Assembly: GCA_021324135.1 (NCBI GenBank)
Contig: JAJPJO010000494.1
Coordinates: forward strand, 1 to 33,953
Origin: Pseudomonadota bacterium
Lineage (GTDB): Bacteria > Cyanobacteriota > Vampirovibrionia > Obscuribacterales > Obscuribacteraceae
Reading direction: 5' to 3'
Length of the DNA stretch: 33,953 nt
Shown: piece after piece, positions 25,034-32,112 of the stretch
Layout of the letters: the number at the start of each line of letters is the position of its first letter
Numbering within the stretch: position 1 is the stretch's first letter
The notes under the pieces: model-generated
Seen by the model: only the letters and a program-made list of their open reading frames with translations
Database searches by the model: none
Told to the model about the DNA's origin: nothing
Program-made: the position numbers and the translations under genes

Positions 25034-25218
25034 CCTGTATAGAGGGGTGCCAACTCAGGATGCTACCTCACCAAAAAGGGGAAACCCATAAGAAAACATC
25101 AATATATTTGAGCTTTGCGCGCGCTGAATGGTAACCTCTAAGCAAGAGGGTCTCGGCCTGGATATTGTCGCTGAGCCGAGGGCTGCTTATTTACTCAAAG
25201 AGATCGGGGACGAATGTC

Positions 25219-26610
25219 GTGGAAATATGTGTGGTCGGCGCTGGTTATGTTGGCCTGGTAACCAGTGCCTGTCTAGCTTATCTGGGCAATCAAGTGGTAG
25301 CCGTGGAAGCCAATCCTCAGCGCTTGACCAGCTTGCAGGCAGGCGAGGTACCCTTCTTCGAGCCTGGTCTGGACGACTTTGTTAAGAGCTGCTTGAATAC
25401 GGGCAATTTGAAGTTCAGTGACAATCTCGAGCAAGGCGTTAAGGATTCCGAAATCGTCTTTATATGTGTCGGCACACCATCGCTTGCCAACGGTGACCCC
25501 GACCTCTCGCAGGTGATGACCGTCGCCAGAGCTATTGGCGGTGCCCTGGACAACAAGCGGCGGCGTCTGATCGTCAACAAATCCACTGTGCCGGTGGGCT
25601 CCGGAAACTGGGTCGAGATGCTGGTGAATCAGGGTGTTCAAGCTGTTCAGCCGGTGCCGGCGCGCAGCGCTCGGCCCGAGTCGTCCGTTTTCTCCGTCGT
25701 CAGCAATCCTGAGTTCTTGCGGGAAGGCAGCGCTATCTCCGACTCGTTCTATCCCGATCGAATCGTTGTCGGCTCCACCGACGATGCCTCCGTGGAGCAG
25801 ATGCGAAAGTTGTACAAGCCGCTGATCACCCAGGATTTCGATCCGCCCGAGTGTGCGCCTCGACCAAAAGGATTGGAGCACGTTCCATTTGTGGTCACCG
25901 ATCTGGCCTCGGCTGAGTTGATCAAATATTCGGCCAACGCATTTCTGGCGATGAAGATCAGCTTTGCAAACGAAGTGGCCGGGCTCTGCGAGAAGGTCGG
26001 CGCTGATGTGAAACAAGTTACTCGTGGTATCGGACTTGATGGCAGAATCGGTGCATCATTTTTGAATGCCGGCGTCGGCTGGGGAGGCAGCTGCTTCCAC
26101 AAGGACGTTATGGCGCTTCAACAAGTGGCGCGCGAATACAACTATCCGACCAACTTGCTCGAGGCGACGGTTAAGGTAAACGAGCGACAGCGTTTGATAG
26201 TAATTCAGAAGTTGCAGGACGAGCTCAAGATCATCAAGGGGCGAACGATTGGCTTGATGGGCCTGTCGTTTAAACCAAATACCGATGACTTGCGAGATGC
26301 TCCCAGTTTGACGATTGCCCGGCAGTTGCTCAAGATGGGAGCGACAGTGAAAGCGTACGACCCCGTCGCCAACAAGGAGTGCAAAAGGCAGCATGCCGAT
26401 CTCGACATAAGCTATTGCGATGACTTGATTGAGCTTGCCACCGACTGTGATGCCCTGGTTTTAGTCACGGAATGGGATGAGTTCAAACGAGCCAATTGGC
26501 GGGAGGTATCCCGCGTGATGCGCTGGCCGCTCGTCATCGACGGGCGCAATGTGCTGCCTGAGGAAGAGATCGTTCAACACGGCATGACTTATAGAGGGAT
26601 CGGGCGTTGA
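25219..26610 (+). CDS. ugd: UDP-glucose 6-dehydrogenase
   Basis: Two-step NAD-dependent oxidation of UDP-glucose to UDP-glucuronate in the cytoplasm. The protein begins [16 protein letters not shown] (Rossmann GxGxxG). It has [17 protein letters not shown] and [11 protein letters not shown], followed by the catalytic Cys in [10 protein letters not shown] (about C292) and [16 protein letters not shown] near the C-terminal UDP-binding domain. I prefer the GTG at 25219, which gives the normal N-terminus with a GGGGA about 8 nt upstream; the ORF extends in frame to 25165. About 464 residues. It overlaps uxs by 4 nt, so the two form a UDP-sugar operon. A short inverted repeat (25152-25157/25175-25180) lies in the leader. 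Confidence 0.96.
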
Positions 26611-27554
26611 GAATCTTAGTCACTGGCGCAGCCGGATTTATCGGGTCGCATCTGGTCGATCGATTGATGTCGGAAGGACACTATGTGATCGCCATGGATA
26701 ATTTGATCACCGGCAAGTACGACAATCTGGAGCCGCATCGATCTGAGACGAGATTTGAGTTTATTCATCACAATGTCTCGAACTACATCCACGTGCCCGG
26801 ACATCTCGATTGGGTAGTGCACCTCGCCTCGCCGGCCTCGCCGGTGGATTATCTGGAGCTGCCCATCCAGACGCTCAAAGTGAATTCGCTGGGAACCCAC
26901 AATACGCTCGGATTGGCCGCGAATAAAGGGGCAAAATATTTGCTGGCCAGCACATCAGAGGTGTATGGCGATCCGGAAGTGCATCCGCAGCCGGAAACTT
27001 ACTGGGGGAACGTAAACCCGATTGGACCGCGCGGCGTTTATGATGAATCGAAGCGTTTCGCCGAAGCTTTGACGACTGCTTATAACCATATGCACAAGCT
27101 GGATACGCGCATCATCAGAATATTCAACTGCTATGGTCCGCGTCTGCGCTTGAACGATGGCAGGGTTGTATCGAACTTCATCTATCAAGCCTTGAAGGGT
27201 GAAGCCCTCACCGTATATGGTGACGGCAGTCAGACAAGAAGCTTTCAATACGTAGCCGATCTCGTTGACGGCATAGTTCGCACTATGGGCTGCGATCATC
27301 ATCTGCCGATTAATCTCGGTAATCCGCAAGAAAAAACGGTTCTCGAGATCGCGAAGTTGATAAAAGAATTAACGCGCAGCCGCAGTGAAATTGTTTTCAA
27401 ACCATTACCTATTGATGATCCTCGCAGACGCCTGCCCGACATCACCAAGGCTCGGGAATTGCTTGGCTGGGAGCCGAAGACGCAACTGGTCGACGGACTC
27501 AAGGAAACCATTGCCTGGTTCGAGGCCCAATTCCCAAAAGCGGCAGCGCGATAG
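26607..27554 (+). CDS. uxs: UDP-glucuronate decarboxylase (UDP-xylose synthase)
   Basis: Extended short-chain dehydrogenase. Residues 6-13 TGAAGFIG bind NAD; S115-T-S, Y145 and K149 (YDESK) form the catalytic set. [12 protein letters not shown] is the signature of UDP-glucuronate decarboxylases and separates it from simple 4-epimerases; also RIFNCYGPR and [12 protein letters not shown]. 315 residues, the normal size for bacterial UXS. TTG start at 26607 within the ugd stop region (TTGA, 4-nt overlap), so translation is coupled. Together with Ugd it makes UDP-xylose from UDP-glucose for capsule, LPS or exopolysaccharide. Confidence 0.92.
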
Positions 27555-27612
27555 AGTTAGCTCGAAAGAGTGATCTCGTAATTTAAAACTTTTATGAAAA
27601 GATCATATCTAA

Positions 27613-27628
27613 CTCAGTTATAACTGAG
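27613..27628. promoter_or_regulatory. Operator-like 16-bp perfect palindrome
   Basis: CTCAGTTA followed by its exact reverse complement TAACTGAG, 59 bp after the uxs stop codon. A perfect palindrome of this length outside a gene suits a dimeric repressor site, but no promoter is clearly attached to it. Confidence 0.35.
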
Positions 27629-27684
27629 GCCGTCGGAATCTTGACGTTTCCCTGATGCCTGCGCGTTCGATGATAAAGAGTGCA

Positions 27685-27728
27685 AGAGCTGTTCGGGCAT
27701 CCAGGAGCGTCCGGGCAGCTCTCTTTTT
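27685..27728 (+). terminator. Probable intrinsic terminator after ugd-uxs
   Basis: Stem AGAGCTG (27685-27691) with CAGCTCT (27716-27722), a 2x2 internal loop, and an inner stem CGGGC/GTCCG (27694-27698/27709-27713, one G-U pair), followed by CTTTTT. It sits 130 bp downstream of uxs and would separate it from the glucanase gene. Confidence 0.6.
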
Positions 27729-27984
27729 CGAACCATTTTTCAATTGAGCGGCGGTTTGAATTTTATTTGATCAACCGTTACCGCACAATTTCCTTTGGGC
27801 GTAATTGTTTTAACAGCTCCTGGAACGAACTGTGACCTTTCCTCATCCGACGCCTTAAATTTAGTCATCTGTTCGACTGCATCTGCCGCTCATCCTTGTC
27901 GATAGGCCGGTGGATCGTCGCTGACTCGATCCCTCTCTAGCGAACGGTCACAGCACATGACGTGTGTTCACGGGAGGTATTCTT

Positions 27985-29466
27985 ATGAGAATACGCATAA
28001 GAAGCTGCGCAGGCTGCGCGGCTGTGTTGATGCGCACATACCAGAGAGCACCATTTATACTGGTAGCACTGCTGGTATCATTGTTCGCAAGCGTCTCACG
28101 AGCTCAGGCCGGGCCATCAGGCATGGTGCTGGAGGGCGTAAACATATCCGGAGGCGAGTTTAATCCAACCTTAGTGCCGGGAGTTTACGGCACCAATTAT
28201 ATTTATCCATCAAACTCCGAGATTGATTATTTCGCTTCCAAAGGCATGAATGTGATTCGCGTGCCCTTCTCATGGGAGCGCATGCAGCCGGCTGCAAACG
28301 GTGCTCTGGATCCCACGGAATTGGGCAGGCTCGATGCAGTGGTGGCACGCGCTACCGCAAGAGGCATGTATACCGTAGTTGATCCGCATAATTATGGCGC
28401 CTATCAAGGTTTGACGATTGGCGTGCCGGGAGGGCAGCCGAATTCGATGTTCGCCGACTTCTGGAGCCGGATGGCAACGCACTATGCGAGCAATCCAAAG
28501 GTAATCTTCGGATTGATGAACGAACCGGTCGGGTCCAGCATGACCGCCACGACCTGGGCGGCATCAGCGCAAGCTGCGATAAACGCGATTCGGAAAACGG
28601 GTGCGACTAATTTGATCCTGGTTCCATCGACATACTGGGAGCATCCGGTGAACTTCCTTTCTCTCAATGCCAGTGCCATGATCAACATCACTGATCCGGC
28701 CAACAACTTCTCTTATGAAGTGCATCAATACCTCGATTACGATGGATCGGGAACCCATCCGGATTTTCTCAGCGTCACCGACAGCGTCGCCACACTCAGC
28801 GGTTTTACTCAATGGTTGCTCGCCAATCATAAAACTGCGTTCCTGGGTGAGATCGGTGTTACCACCGCCCCTGGTGCGCTGGCCGATTTGAATGCAATGC
28901 TCCAGTACATGCATGCCAATCCCGGCGCCTGGACCGGATACACATATTGGACGGCCGGCGCCTGGTACGGGCCGAATTACATGTTCGGTGTTGAGCCGAT
29001 CAACGGGCAAGATACGCCGCAGATGCAGGTTCTGGTCGCTAACCTCGGTACCCATACACCGGTGCCCACGCCTACGCCGACACCTACACCTACACCTACA
29101 CCAACGCCGACACCTACACCTACACCTACACCAACGCCGACACCGACACCAACGCCAACGCCGACACCGACACCGACGCCTACACCGACGCCTACACCGA
29201 CGCCGACACCAACGCCCACCCCGAATCCAGGCGGGCATGGTCATCATGGAGGAAGCGGCGGGCATGGAGGTGGGCACAGTGGCAATCACGGGCACTCTCC
29301 CCATCCGGCGCATCCTCCTCACGGCGGACAAAACGCCCATAGTGGACAACACCACCATGCCGCTGCGCATGAGCATTCCAGGCATGAGCACGCGGCGAGC
29401 AACAATTTGCACCGTCAGCCTCATCATGCACATGCACAGGCGCATGGTAACGGGCACGCCTCATGA
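27985..29466 (+). CDS. Exported GH5-family endoglucanase with Pro-Thr linker and His-rich tail
   Basis: A secreted glycoside hydrolase of family 5. The ATG at 27985 has GGGAGG 7 nt upstream. A signal peptide (hydrophobic core [14 protein letters not shown]) leads into the catalytic domain: GVNISGGEF, the [13 protein letters not shown] strand, [15 protein letters not shown] (acid/base E180), VHQYLD and FLGEIG (nucleophile E289). The closest picture is a cellulase (endo-1,4-beta-glucanase); exact substrate is inferred. A Pro-Thr linker of about 55 residues follows. The chain ends in about 76 residues containing 24 His plus much Gly, unlike any carbohydrate-binding module I know. The stop overlaps the next start (ATGA). 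Confidence 0.88.
29059..29226 (+). repeat. In-frame hexanucleotide repeat encoding the Pro-Thr linker
   Basis: Tandem CCNACN units encoding (Pro-Thr)n. A longer 30-bp unit is repeated exactly (29074-29103 and 29104-29133), suggesting recent slippage or duplication. Length variation between strains is expected here. Confidence 0.85.
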
Positions 29467-31184
29467 AGGTGCGCACGAAAAAAAGGGATAGTGGCAATGT
29501 TCTTGTCATTGTCACGCTCAGTATATGCATGATTGTCGTGCCACTATCCCTGGTGCTGATCCAAATAGGTATGTACCTCATTGACCGGGATCGCGCCGAG
29601 AGCACGGTTGAGGCAGCCTGTTTGGTGGCAGCAAACGATCTTTCTCGCATCGTAATCGATGACCCGCACTTCGGTTACGTCTCACTGAGCAACTATCCTC
29701 CTGTCGGGCGAGGGTTACGGGCCCCGGACGGCGAGCCTTTGCCGGTCGTCGGCATCAATACTCTTGTGGGCACCGTCCGGCAAAATACAATCATCGCCCA
29801 TGAGCTCGGCAACGAAACAATTGGGGCGCTTGTCGACGATGACAGAGAAGCACTGGATAAAACAATAAAGGATTTGAATTTCGCCTGGCGCTGTGCGCTA
29901 TCGAATAGAGGCAGGTACAGAGATATACATGGCGAGGAAGTGATTCTTCTTGATGATGTTACCGACTTCATCGAGAGCCATCTGCCGCCTAATTTGCATG
30001 TTCGCTCCATCGATCTGAGCCAGGGATGGCTGGTTGATGAGGGCGGGACAACTACCATATCCGTTCCTGAACCAGCCATGTATGCTCGAGTCAATGCCAG
30101 CGACCAGCGCGGCGGCAAGTACAAACCCTTCAGAAACATTCCTCTCTTCAATCGCCCATTTTCATTTGCGGGCGCGGGCGCATCTTCTTCACTCGTTCCT
30201 CTAAATCAATTTCAAGATGCCGATGCAAGGCACATCTGCTCCATCGTCAAAATTGATTGCACTATCGAGAGAGACGGACCCTGCCGAAATTTCATCTCGG
30301 CATCGAGCGATGCCTTTGGAATTTTGCATTGCCAGGCCTGTGCTCAACCCTACACCATGCCTGATACTGGACCAAGAGGAATTCTCACGCTCCGGTTTAC
30401 CGGTGAGCCTGTGCCCGGCTTGCAATCGTGGAGCGATCTCTTGAAGGACAATTTTCACGACAATCGCGTCACCACATACGAAGTCGTCGGCGGAGACTAT
30501 CCTCTTGACGGCCAGGCCCGCATGAAGCAATTCGAGCCCCCTGCCCCGCCAAGCACGGGTCGCCAGTTCTCTGAGCACTTTTACTATTGGTTAAGAAACG
30601 GACATCTGCGACCCCATGTCGATGCCGTTTTACGCATGGTAAACGACTCGTTCAAGGCTCGTCCACTTGAGATTTACACATACGAATTTGCCAGCGACGG
30701 CGATATTTCAAGAAGAGTCATCGCTCGCGATCCGTTTCCTATAGGGGTAACAGCCGACTCTCAGCTCTCCACCGTATGTGATACCAGCGTGCAGGGCGGA
30801 GTTTCTCCCATTATAATAATCAGAGATAACGTCTCCAGGCTTGGTACTAAGCATGGTGGCAAACATTGCGGAGAACCGCTTGAGGGGCATCCGCTCAATT
30901 GGTGCGAACTCACCGAATACGGTGGCGACGAGCATATGGCCAAAGGGCTGGGCAAAGGCAGGCTGGGCACTCGCCTTACATTGCTTGATCCTGATTGCAG
31001 GTCAAAGGATGCTTCTGACGATCCCAACTTCTTTATCTTCAGGCGCCTGGACGGCAGCAATTTAAGCTTGCAACCGCGCCGCAGTTTTTACAGCGGCGGC
31101 CTGGCAGTCGATATCGAAATCGGCGGAATATCCGGATCTACGGCCGCTCAGGACGTGCAGTCGATGCGACGACTGAATCGTTAA
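29463..31184 (+). CDS. TadG/TadE-like pseudopilin-type membrane protein
   Basis: A 573-residue protein with a short basic N-terminus ([12 protein letters not shown]), one hydrophobic helix (about 13-40), and the motif [24 protein letters not shown]. This is how Flp-pilus TadE/TadG-like and related flp-associated proteins begin: a Gly/Asn before the helix, then an Ala-rich amphipathic extension. The remaining ~510 residues are presumably extracytoplasmic, with several Cys (for example the pairs around CTIERDGPC and HCQACAQ) and no known enzyme motif. The ATG overlaps the GH5 stop by 4 nt and has no Shine-Dalgarno of its own, so both proteins are probably made together. Classification beyond 'TadG-like N-terminus' is tentative. 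Confidence 0.6.
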
Positions 31185-31299
31185 GGCAATGAGCCTGGAA
31201 AGAACCAGTCGATCTGTGTTAATGTGGCTCGGCTTCGCGGGCTCATTCTATGCCTTGAGCGACTGATCGAAGTCCGCTATCCTCAGCATTGGAAAACAG

Positions 31300-32112
31300 A
31301 TGAACACTATACTTGGTGCAGTAATTCTGACTGTCGTGTTTGCGACAATTGCCATCGTCGGACAGGCACTGGTCAGCCGCATGGTGAAGATCGACGTGCT
31401 CGAAAAGCATCACAGCGCTGCTGAAGCCATGCTCGGCGTCGTGGGCACTCTTTTCTCGGTTTTGCTCGGATTCATGGTCGCGTCCGCCATGGACAAATAC
31501 CAGGATGCGCAGCATTATGAACGGATCGAGGCCAGCAATGTCGCCAGCATCTTTAGAGTAGCCCGTGGTTTGTCCGATATCGACAGACCGAGAATCCGCC
31601 AGCTATGCAGGCGTTATGTTGATGATGTAATCAACAACGAATGGCCGAAAATGGAGCGAGGAGAAAAGATCAATCACGGCTGGGAGACATATCAGGAATT
31701 ATGGGAGAGCGTTTGCTCGGTGGTGCCTGAAAACGACAGGCAGAACAATCTTCATCAAGGCATCATAACTTCGATGCAGAGCCTGGGAGAGCAGCGCCGC
31801 GCCCGGATCTTGTTGAGTGAAACCGGCATGCCCGGCGCTCTCTGGTTAGTCATTGCCTGTGGTGCCCTGATAACGGTTGCCTTTACCTACATATTCGCAT
31901 CGCAATTTCCGCGCATTCAGGCGCTGATGACTACTATGGTGGCAACCGCTCTGGCGTTGAACGTTTGGTTGCTTTCAGCCTACAGCACACCCTACAGCGG
32001 AGAACTGAAGGTGAAACCAACTATGTTTTTGTTGTTGAAGCAGTCGGTGCTGGTTGTTCCCGATACTCCTACTCGTTTTTTGCATGACCCGCCGAAATCA
32101 GCCTCCAATTAA
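31300..32112 (+). CDS. DUF4239 (bestrophin-like) membrane protein
   Basis: 270 residues: an N-terminal membrane helix (about 4-24), a second (about 46-66; GVVGTLFSVLLGFMVASAM), a large cytoplasmic helical region with charged residues (about 67-175), and two closing helices (about 178-200 and 205-227). The layout and the motifs LEKHHSAAEAMLGVVGT and FSVLLGFMV fit the DUF4239/bestrophin-like family, whose biochemical role is not established (anion-channel likeness is only by fold resemblance). ATG at 31300 with a weak GGA upstream. It ends 7 bp before the convergent glycosyltransferase gene. Confidence 0.8.
   Translation: MNTILGAVILTVVFATIAIVGQALVSRMVKIDVLEKHHSAAEAMLGVVGTLFSVLLGFMVASAMDKYQDAQHYERIEASNVASIFRVARGLSDIDRPRIRQLCRRYVDDVINNEWPKMERGEKINHGWETYQELWESVCSVVPENDRQNNLHQGIITSMQSLGEQRRARILLSETGMPGALWLVIACGALITVAFTYIFASQFPRIQALMTTMVATALALNVWLLSAYSTPYSGELKVKPTMFLLLKQSVLVVPDTPTRFLHDPPKSASN

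Follow-up and report, generated by a model that had tools for sequence, protein, structure and literature searches.

A gene for a GH5 endoglucanase-type protein and, behind it on the same strand, a gene for a large TadG-like protein form a conserved pair in the loci compared here, and we regard this pairing as well supported. The source genome is a draft of 8 Mb, split into 574 contigs, and the pair lies on contig C445, within a stretch of 33,953 nucleotides that is referred to below as the window. An overlap of this kind would be nothing unusual by itself; it is the pair's conservation that goes beyond chance.

The gene pair and its conservation

The pair and its signals comprise the following features, all on the + strand.

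27972..27977, +: Shine-Dalgarno sequence GGGAGG of the GH5 gene, 7 nt 5' of the ATG at 27985 (read from the sequence)
27985..29466, +: GH5 endoglucanase-type gene, first of the pair (Pfam Cellulase PF00150, 7e-57)
about 27985-28104, +: signal-peptide-like region of the GH5 gene (judged by eye)
29057..29228, +: (PT)n low-complexity linker of the GH5 protein (from the translation)
29229..29463, +: Gly/His-rich C-terminal tail of the GH5 protein (from the translation)
29463..29466, +: ATGA, in which the TadG-like start (ATG 29463-29465) overlaps the GH5 stop (TGA 29464-29466)
29463..31184, +: TadG-like gene, 573 aa, second of the pair (translation of the open reading frame; orthologues in relatives)
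29493..29639, +: Tad (TadE/G-like) N-terminal domain with membrane-spanning helix, residues 11-59 (PF13400)
29661..29780, +: most conserved motif 3' of the helix, ...DGEPLPVxGINTLxGTxR (alignments of orthologues and paralogues)

The list of open reading frames placed the GH5 start at GTG 27964; on reading the sequence, ATG 27985 with its GGGAGG at 27972-27977 is the better candidate. A preliminary description of this DNA had pointed to the overlap of the GH5 stop with the next start and to a second gene devoid of its own Shine-Dalgarno sequence. Both observations hold, as a word test of the 22 nt upstream of the TadG-like ATG found none of AGGAGG, GGAGG, AGGAG, GAGG, AGGA, GGAG and AAGG. Over positions 27500-31350 a promoter and terminator scan gave nothing usable: it returned three promoter-like sites where 3.3 were expected, and its terminator-like sites fall within the genes. 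About 400 bp upstream of the pair are genes for a UDP-glucose dehydrogenase and an NAD-dependent epimerase/dehydratase (25165-27554, +), which overlap each other by 4 nt and were not common to the other loci examined in the 27-locus neighbour comparison. Downstream of the pair follows a gene for a bestrophin-like membrane protein (31300-32112, +; 4.5e-52), a 36% relative of which is encoded about 1.6 kb past the TadG gene, on the opposite strand, in G022 (L070).

Besides the window, the comparison took in L009 and 25 stretches from relatives (L050-L074), 27 loci in all; contig ends cut several of the stretches short. A GH5 gene lies directly upstream of the TadG-like gene and on the same strand in 16 of the 27 loci, with gaps ranging from -4 to 208 nt. 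These intact loci are those of the window, of 14 relatives from 12 genera and of one named MAG (L009), the genus of the window being a further one beyond those 12. With seven more loci consistent with the arrangement, the conservation in related genomes that the preliminary description had proposed to look for is confirmed; unlinking of the two genes, which would have spoken against a joint role, is not general among relatives, G020 and G007 being the two exceptions. Families of neighbouring genes other than the pair occur in at most 4 of the 27 loci each, and the largest shared flanking blocks are those between species of one genus. Since the flanks differ and no other neighbour is found in more than four loci, we conclude that the surroundings have been reshuffled while the pair was kept.

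Translational coupling of the two genes, as proposed in the preliminary description, is compatible with the overlap lacking a Shine-Dalgarno sequence in the source genome. However, this arrangement is not conserved. The gap is -4 nt in the window only, -1 nt in G001 and 2 to 208 nt in the other 14 intact loci. Shine-Dalgarno-like words precede the TadG start in 10 of the 16 (a script picked the start in relatives according to the homologous position, and the word test ignored spacing), with GGAGG-type sites in G008, G030, G026 and G009. Because a 4-nt overlap without a Shine-Dalgarno sequence was seen in the source genome only among the intact loci, and such words are present in 10 of them, coupling is not a conserved feature, and it was rejected as the key feature of the pair.

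The 11 loci without a GH5 gene on the same stretch are L073, L074, seven contig-edge cases, G020 and G007. L073 represents the C-terminal half of a split gene of G009, and L074 is a 33% relative that was treated as a paralogue. In the contig-edge cases (G029, G025, G023, G012, G028, G010 and G034) the contig begins at most about 750 nt from the TadG gene, and its start reads as low-complexity linker or GH5-type tail, in G023 as a short tail only. Close GH5 copies located away from the TadG gene (68-80% identical) run off a contig end in nine of nine cases, seven of them in the linker, and the type of linker is alike on the GH5 and TadG contigs of G025, G012 and G034. A search for GH5 in G028 and G010, whose assemblies are 66% and 86% complete, found none. 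G020 possesses both genes in unlinked form, the 3.3 kb that precede its TadG gene being other DNA. The 98% complete genome of G007 encodes the TadG-like protein with no GH5 found. Assemblies of the family repeatedly break in the GH5 linker (L050, L051, L052, L056, L066, L068, L069, L102-L110); the pair is therefore split between contigs in drafts and would escape automatic synteny tools.

Of 35 genomes of the same family, 24 have an orthologue of the TadG-like protein, as does the named MAG of L009; the two named relatives of the protein come from MAGs labelled Candidatus Obscuribacterales and Candidatus Melainabacteria. Among the 35 relatives, 21 have both genes, three TadG only, one GH5 only (G032, a fragment) and ten neither, which corresponds to a Fisher p of 1.5e-5 not corrected for kinship. 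In this count a fragment of G031 (53% identity over 160 residues) was scored as present, though left out of the alignment, and GH5 matches of 23-39% identity were not taken as orthologues; the two of the latter that were inspected, G030:C15 and G025:C184, have an ordinary stop and no adjoining TadG-like relative according to script labels. Pairwise identities of the two proteins at the 16 loci (120 pairs) are correlated (r = 0.70), as joint vertical inheritance would give; the means are 66% (GH5) and 48% (TadG-like). In a tree of 32 proteins a 100/100 branch splits the 25 orthologues from seven paralogues of the source genome; the underlying 25-row alignment left out L010 (same contig as the locus of G008), L073 and L074. 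A limited literature search on Obscuribacterales pili or cellulose and on Tad pili or glycoside hydrolases, judged from listings, found no report of the pair.

The two proteins

Judged by its sequence, the GH5 protein is a secreted endo-beta-1,4-glucanase-type enzyme with predicted cleavage of beta-1,4-glucan. Its catalytic domain spans residues 51-358 (PF00150, 7e-57), and the nearest solved chains in a PDB sequence search are named cellulase or endoglucanase, the best being 5hos (4.5e-80). The glutamates of the NEP motif (E187) and of the GE(I)G motif (E296), which we take to be the catalytic residues of the active site, are kept in all 16 linked copies; in that of G021 the former motif reads TEP, with threonine replacing asparagine. 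Low-complexity linkers of the PT, PN, PA, PD, PPP or GS type are present in 15 of the 16. The exception is again the linked copy of G021, a genome whose second copy, at a contig end, has such a linker. Tails vary by genus and are basic, coiled-coil-like or His-rich; no common docking motif was seen by eye among the 16 tails, and a uniformly basic tail was discarded as a candidate feature, the net charge of the last 35 residues ranging from -1 to +12.

Further GH5 genes occur in family genomes outside the pair. On contig C121 of G026 (L099:6379-8589, +) a second copy, 52% identical to the domain of the window, carries a 376-residue low-complexity tail and ends in an ordinary stop with no adjoining TadG-like gene. 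On contig C15 of G030 (L100:1922-8461) three Tad-like open reading frames are separated by about 1.6 kb from a gene in the opposite direction, whose 707-aa product is a fusion of GDSL lipase and GH5; none of the three has a Pfam match, and one is 27% like a pilin-like open reading frame of the source genome.

The second protein had been described as a pseudopilin with a TadG/TadE-like N-terminus. PF13400 was indeed the only domain found; its match at residues 11-59 (E 9.4e-4) is borderline, with 19.9 bits against a curated cut-off of 22.3, and rises above the cut-off in the genome-wide search (24.6 bits). The same model is matched by 14 of 25 orthologues at E <= 0.01 (best 2.8e-5), the other 11 giving no match. 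Gly11 is invariant in all 25. A glycine followed by glutamate at +5 is the motif of class III and type IV pilins processed by prepilin peptidase; in the protein of the window this position is Ile16, and the glutamate is absent. To our knowledge, TadG proteins likewise lack it. Because of the missing glutamate, and because homology comes from one N-terminal domain, the term TadG-like fits better than pseudopilin.

The remaining part of about 510 residues, earlier called unclassified, deserves that label: it has no match in Pfam or NCBIfam, and no PDB sequence is a credible match to the family (best E 0.63 and 0.32). The cysteines that had been noticed in this part are present and only partly conserved (C266 in 22 and C293 in 20 of 25 orthologues). 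The motif downstream of the helix is largely common to the paralogues of the source genome too. Structure prediction, which had been suggested as a check, yielded only low-confidence models from 3-row alignments: AlphaFold gave a mean pLDDT of 32.7 for the full protein and of 44.2 for residues 1-200, with a long N-terminal helix at low confidence in each (residues 9-59 and 9-57, respectively). A search of viral contigs with the protein found no relative.

Tad genes and paralogues in the source genome

In line with the preliminary description, no other tad gene was found among the 10 window proteins scanned. The search for such genes elsewhere that it had recommended revealed a Tad assembly locus on contig C50, apart from the pair on C445, with genes for RcpC/CpaB, a CpaE-like ATPase, TadA, two TadB/C-like proteins and an A24 peptidase. 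A 68-aa open reading frame beside cpaB looks Flp-pilin-like by eye; the Flp model PF04964 has no match in the source genome. Three secretins are encoded on contigs other than C50. In the stretches examined the pair was never found inside a Tad assembly locus, and there is neither a TadE/F-like gene beside it in the window nor such a conserved neighbour over the 27 loci. RcpC is present in 34 of 36 family genomes (source genome included), in 3 of 3 others of the order and in 10 of 21 others of the class. Taken broadly (E <= 0.001), the TadG-like family has members in 38 of the order's 39 genomes, and none in the 21 other genomes of the class. Among 244 sampled genomes of the phylum, the source genome alone gave a full match; two further, weak matches were confined to about residues 6-61.

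The source genome contains nine matches to the TadG-like protein including itself, the last of the eight others being weak. Two paralogues (on C492 and C92) are encoded directly 3' of pilin-like open reading frames of about 370 aa, the one on C492 having no Pfam match, and another (C559) precedes an open reading frame that matches TadE weakly. Further Tad-like clusters in the source genome feature a VWA-like domain, collagen-like repeats or a cellulose-synthase-like neighbour. On contig C77 (L085:1298-2914, -) a TadE-like protein (TadE 0.0016, under the cut-off) with C-terminal collagen-like repeats (Collagen 1.6e-7) adjoins an 839-aa TadG-like protein with a weak VWA match, and an 82% identical copy runs off the contig end. 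On contig C123 (L111:2334-7837, +) a VWA-bearing TadG-like protein and two small pilin-like open reading frames are directly followed by a cellulose-synthase-like glycosyltransferase, which scores 394.7 bits to TIGR03030, under the cut-off of 699.1.

Proposed function and comparison with known systems

That the pair was kept while its flanks changed, in a family of bacteria related to cyanobacteria but non-photosynthetic, suggests that the enzyme is displayed or delivered together with the TadG-like protein. With confidence slightly short of even, we read the pair as a surface module peculiar to this clade and resembling a Tad tip, by which an endoglucanase is displayed or delivered; docking, incorporation into a pilus and the substrate are inferred. 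The surface apparatus for attaching to or processing a glucan that the preliminary description had suggested is supported in part, by the conserved linkage and by the Tad assembly genes; its pilus part and its role in glucan attachment are putative. In this model the two genes, kept together in one family of Candidatus Obscuribacterales, would form an operon-like, presumably co-expressed module. The first would provide a secreted GH5 endo-beta-1,4-glucanase-type enzyme, usually on a long flexible linker, and the second a TadG-like protein in which a pilin-type membrane helix at the N-terminus is combined with a large outer domain specific to the lineage. By analogy with PMC12075869 and PMC9565799, the latter may be one of several interchangeable Tad-pilus tip or tip-like surface proteins of the source genome, with the glucanase as its partner; it would dock the enzyme and thereby display or deliver it at the cell surface, where the cell could hold and cut outside beta-glucan, for example the cellulose of algal, plant or oomycete walls. 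Besides the linkage, the co-occurrence of the two genes, the single clade of TadG-like orthologues, their Tad domain and the Tad locus on C50 favour this reading. Against a tip speak the TadG-like protein kept in G007 without GH5, the unlinked genes of G020, the lack of a shared docking tail, the linkerless GH5 of G021, the absence of a TadE/F-like gene at the pair, the position of the pair outside the Tad assembly locus in the stretches examined, the borderline Tad score, the low confidence of the structure models and the Flp model without a match.

A serious rival is that the TadG-like protein never enters a pilus: as a plain single-span membrane protein it would, through its outer domain, serve the glucanase as an anchor, folding aid or export helper. 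The pair would then be a surface cellulase together with a dedicated anchor or accessory protein. Such a role would fit a pair conserved as two genes alone and the single borderline N-terminal domain that makes up the pilus evidence. It is less easily reconciled with the many Tad-like paralogues, some beside pilin-like open reading frames, and with a family that resides in genomes nearly all of which have RcpC, and we consider it somewhat unlikely. The glucanase might instead trim the cell's own cellulose or exopolysaccharide, the TadG-like protein being part of the same envelope or biofilm apparatus. A cellulose-synthase-like protein is encoded beside other Tad-like genes of the source genome, which in this respect is a counter-case, and sugar-nucleotide genes lie upstream of the pair in the window. 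However, these genes are not conserved beside the pair, and among 22 family relatives a CelA match of more than 200 bits is found in 1 of 11 with GH5 versus 4 of 11 without. Trimming of own cellulose is thus not favoured; the cell's own cellulose is probably not the target, and the proposal as a whole appears improbable. Finally, the two genes may be neighbours by inheritance only, with no joint function. Neighbouring genes may stay in order for no particular reason; in G020 the two are no longer linked, G007 has no GH5, and flanks are also common to species of one genus. Yet flanks differ between nearly all genera while the pair stays, at mean pairwise identities of 48% (TadG-like) and 66% (GH5), which makes mere inheritance very improbable.

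Returning to the Tad-tip-like surface module, it is tempting to speculate that the Tad pili of Obscuribacterales have interchangeable tips, one of which, ancestral to much of the family, would carry or deliver an endoglucanase and so make up a cellulase-tipped pilus for holding and cutting through polysaccharide walls, perhaps in attacks on algae or other walled cells. We rate this extended version as rather unlikely, and walled algae or other cells as the target are a guess. Predation on Chlorella has been described for Vampirovibrio, a related member of the class (PMC5877343).

Few partners and targets of large TadG-like proteins are known beyond predation, and the pair offers one such protein, from an uncultured lineage, a concrete and assayable partner. 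The gene pairing could also point to the jobs of other TadG-like paralogues in Obscuribacterales genomes.

With the GH5 cellulases of the 5hos/4w7u and 1gzj groups, which we take to belong to GH5 subfamily 5, the enzymes studied here share the catalytic domain and the active-site motifs; they differ in their long low-complexity linkers, their variable tails and the tie to a TadG-like gene. Pilins linked to cellulose adhesion in Ruminococcus resemble the pair in that pilin-type proteins occur in cellulose-dwelling bacteria. They belong to a different pilus class, and we know of no conserved pilin-GH5 gene pair in Ruminococcus.

According to a recent proposal, Tad pili have interchangeable tips that are based on large TadG-like proteins (PMC12075869). 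As outlined there for KilLMN of Myxococcus and for TadE/F/G tip complexes, these proteins combine an N-terminal pilin-type helix with a variable outer domain, and they occur as several paralogues per genome alongside a Tad assembly locus, as in the source genome. By contrast, Kil tips are three-protein complexes encoded together, whereas the TadG-like gene of the pair has a secreted GH5 partner in place of a TadE/F-like gene; no carbohydrase is named in the passages of that paper considered here. In TcpB-TcpF of Vibrio cholerae, a minor pilin docks a secreted protein whose gene belongs to the same operon and which likewise has a flexible end (PMC9565799). A cargo gene adjoining the minor-pilin gene is a feature of this system that recurs in the 16 intact loci and is consistent with seven more of the 27. 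The same account describes a Type IVb rather than a Tad system, in which TcpF, not a GH5 enzyme, docks via its N-terminus as known from crystal structures. Most likely, the pair is a variant on the themes of adaptable Tad tips and of a minor pilin with its cargo.
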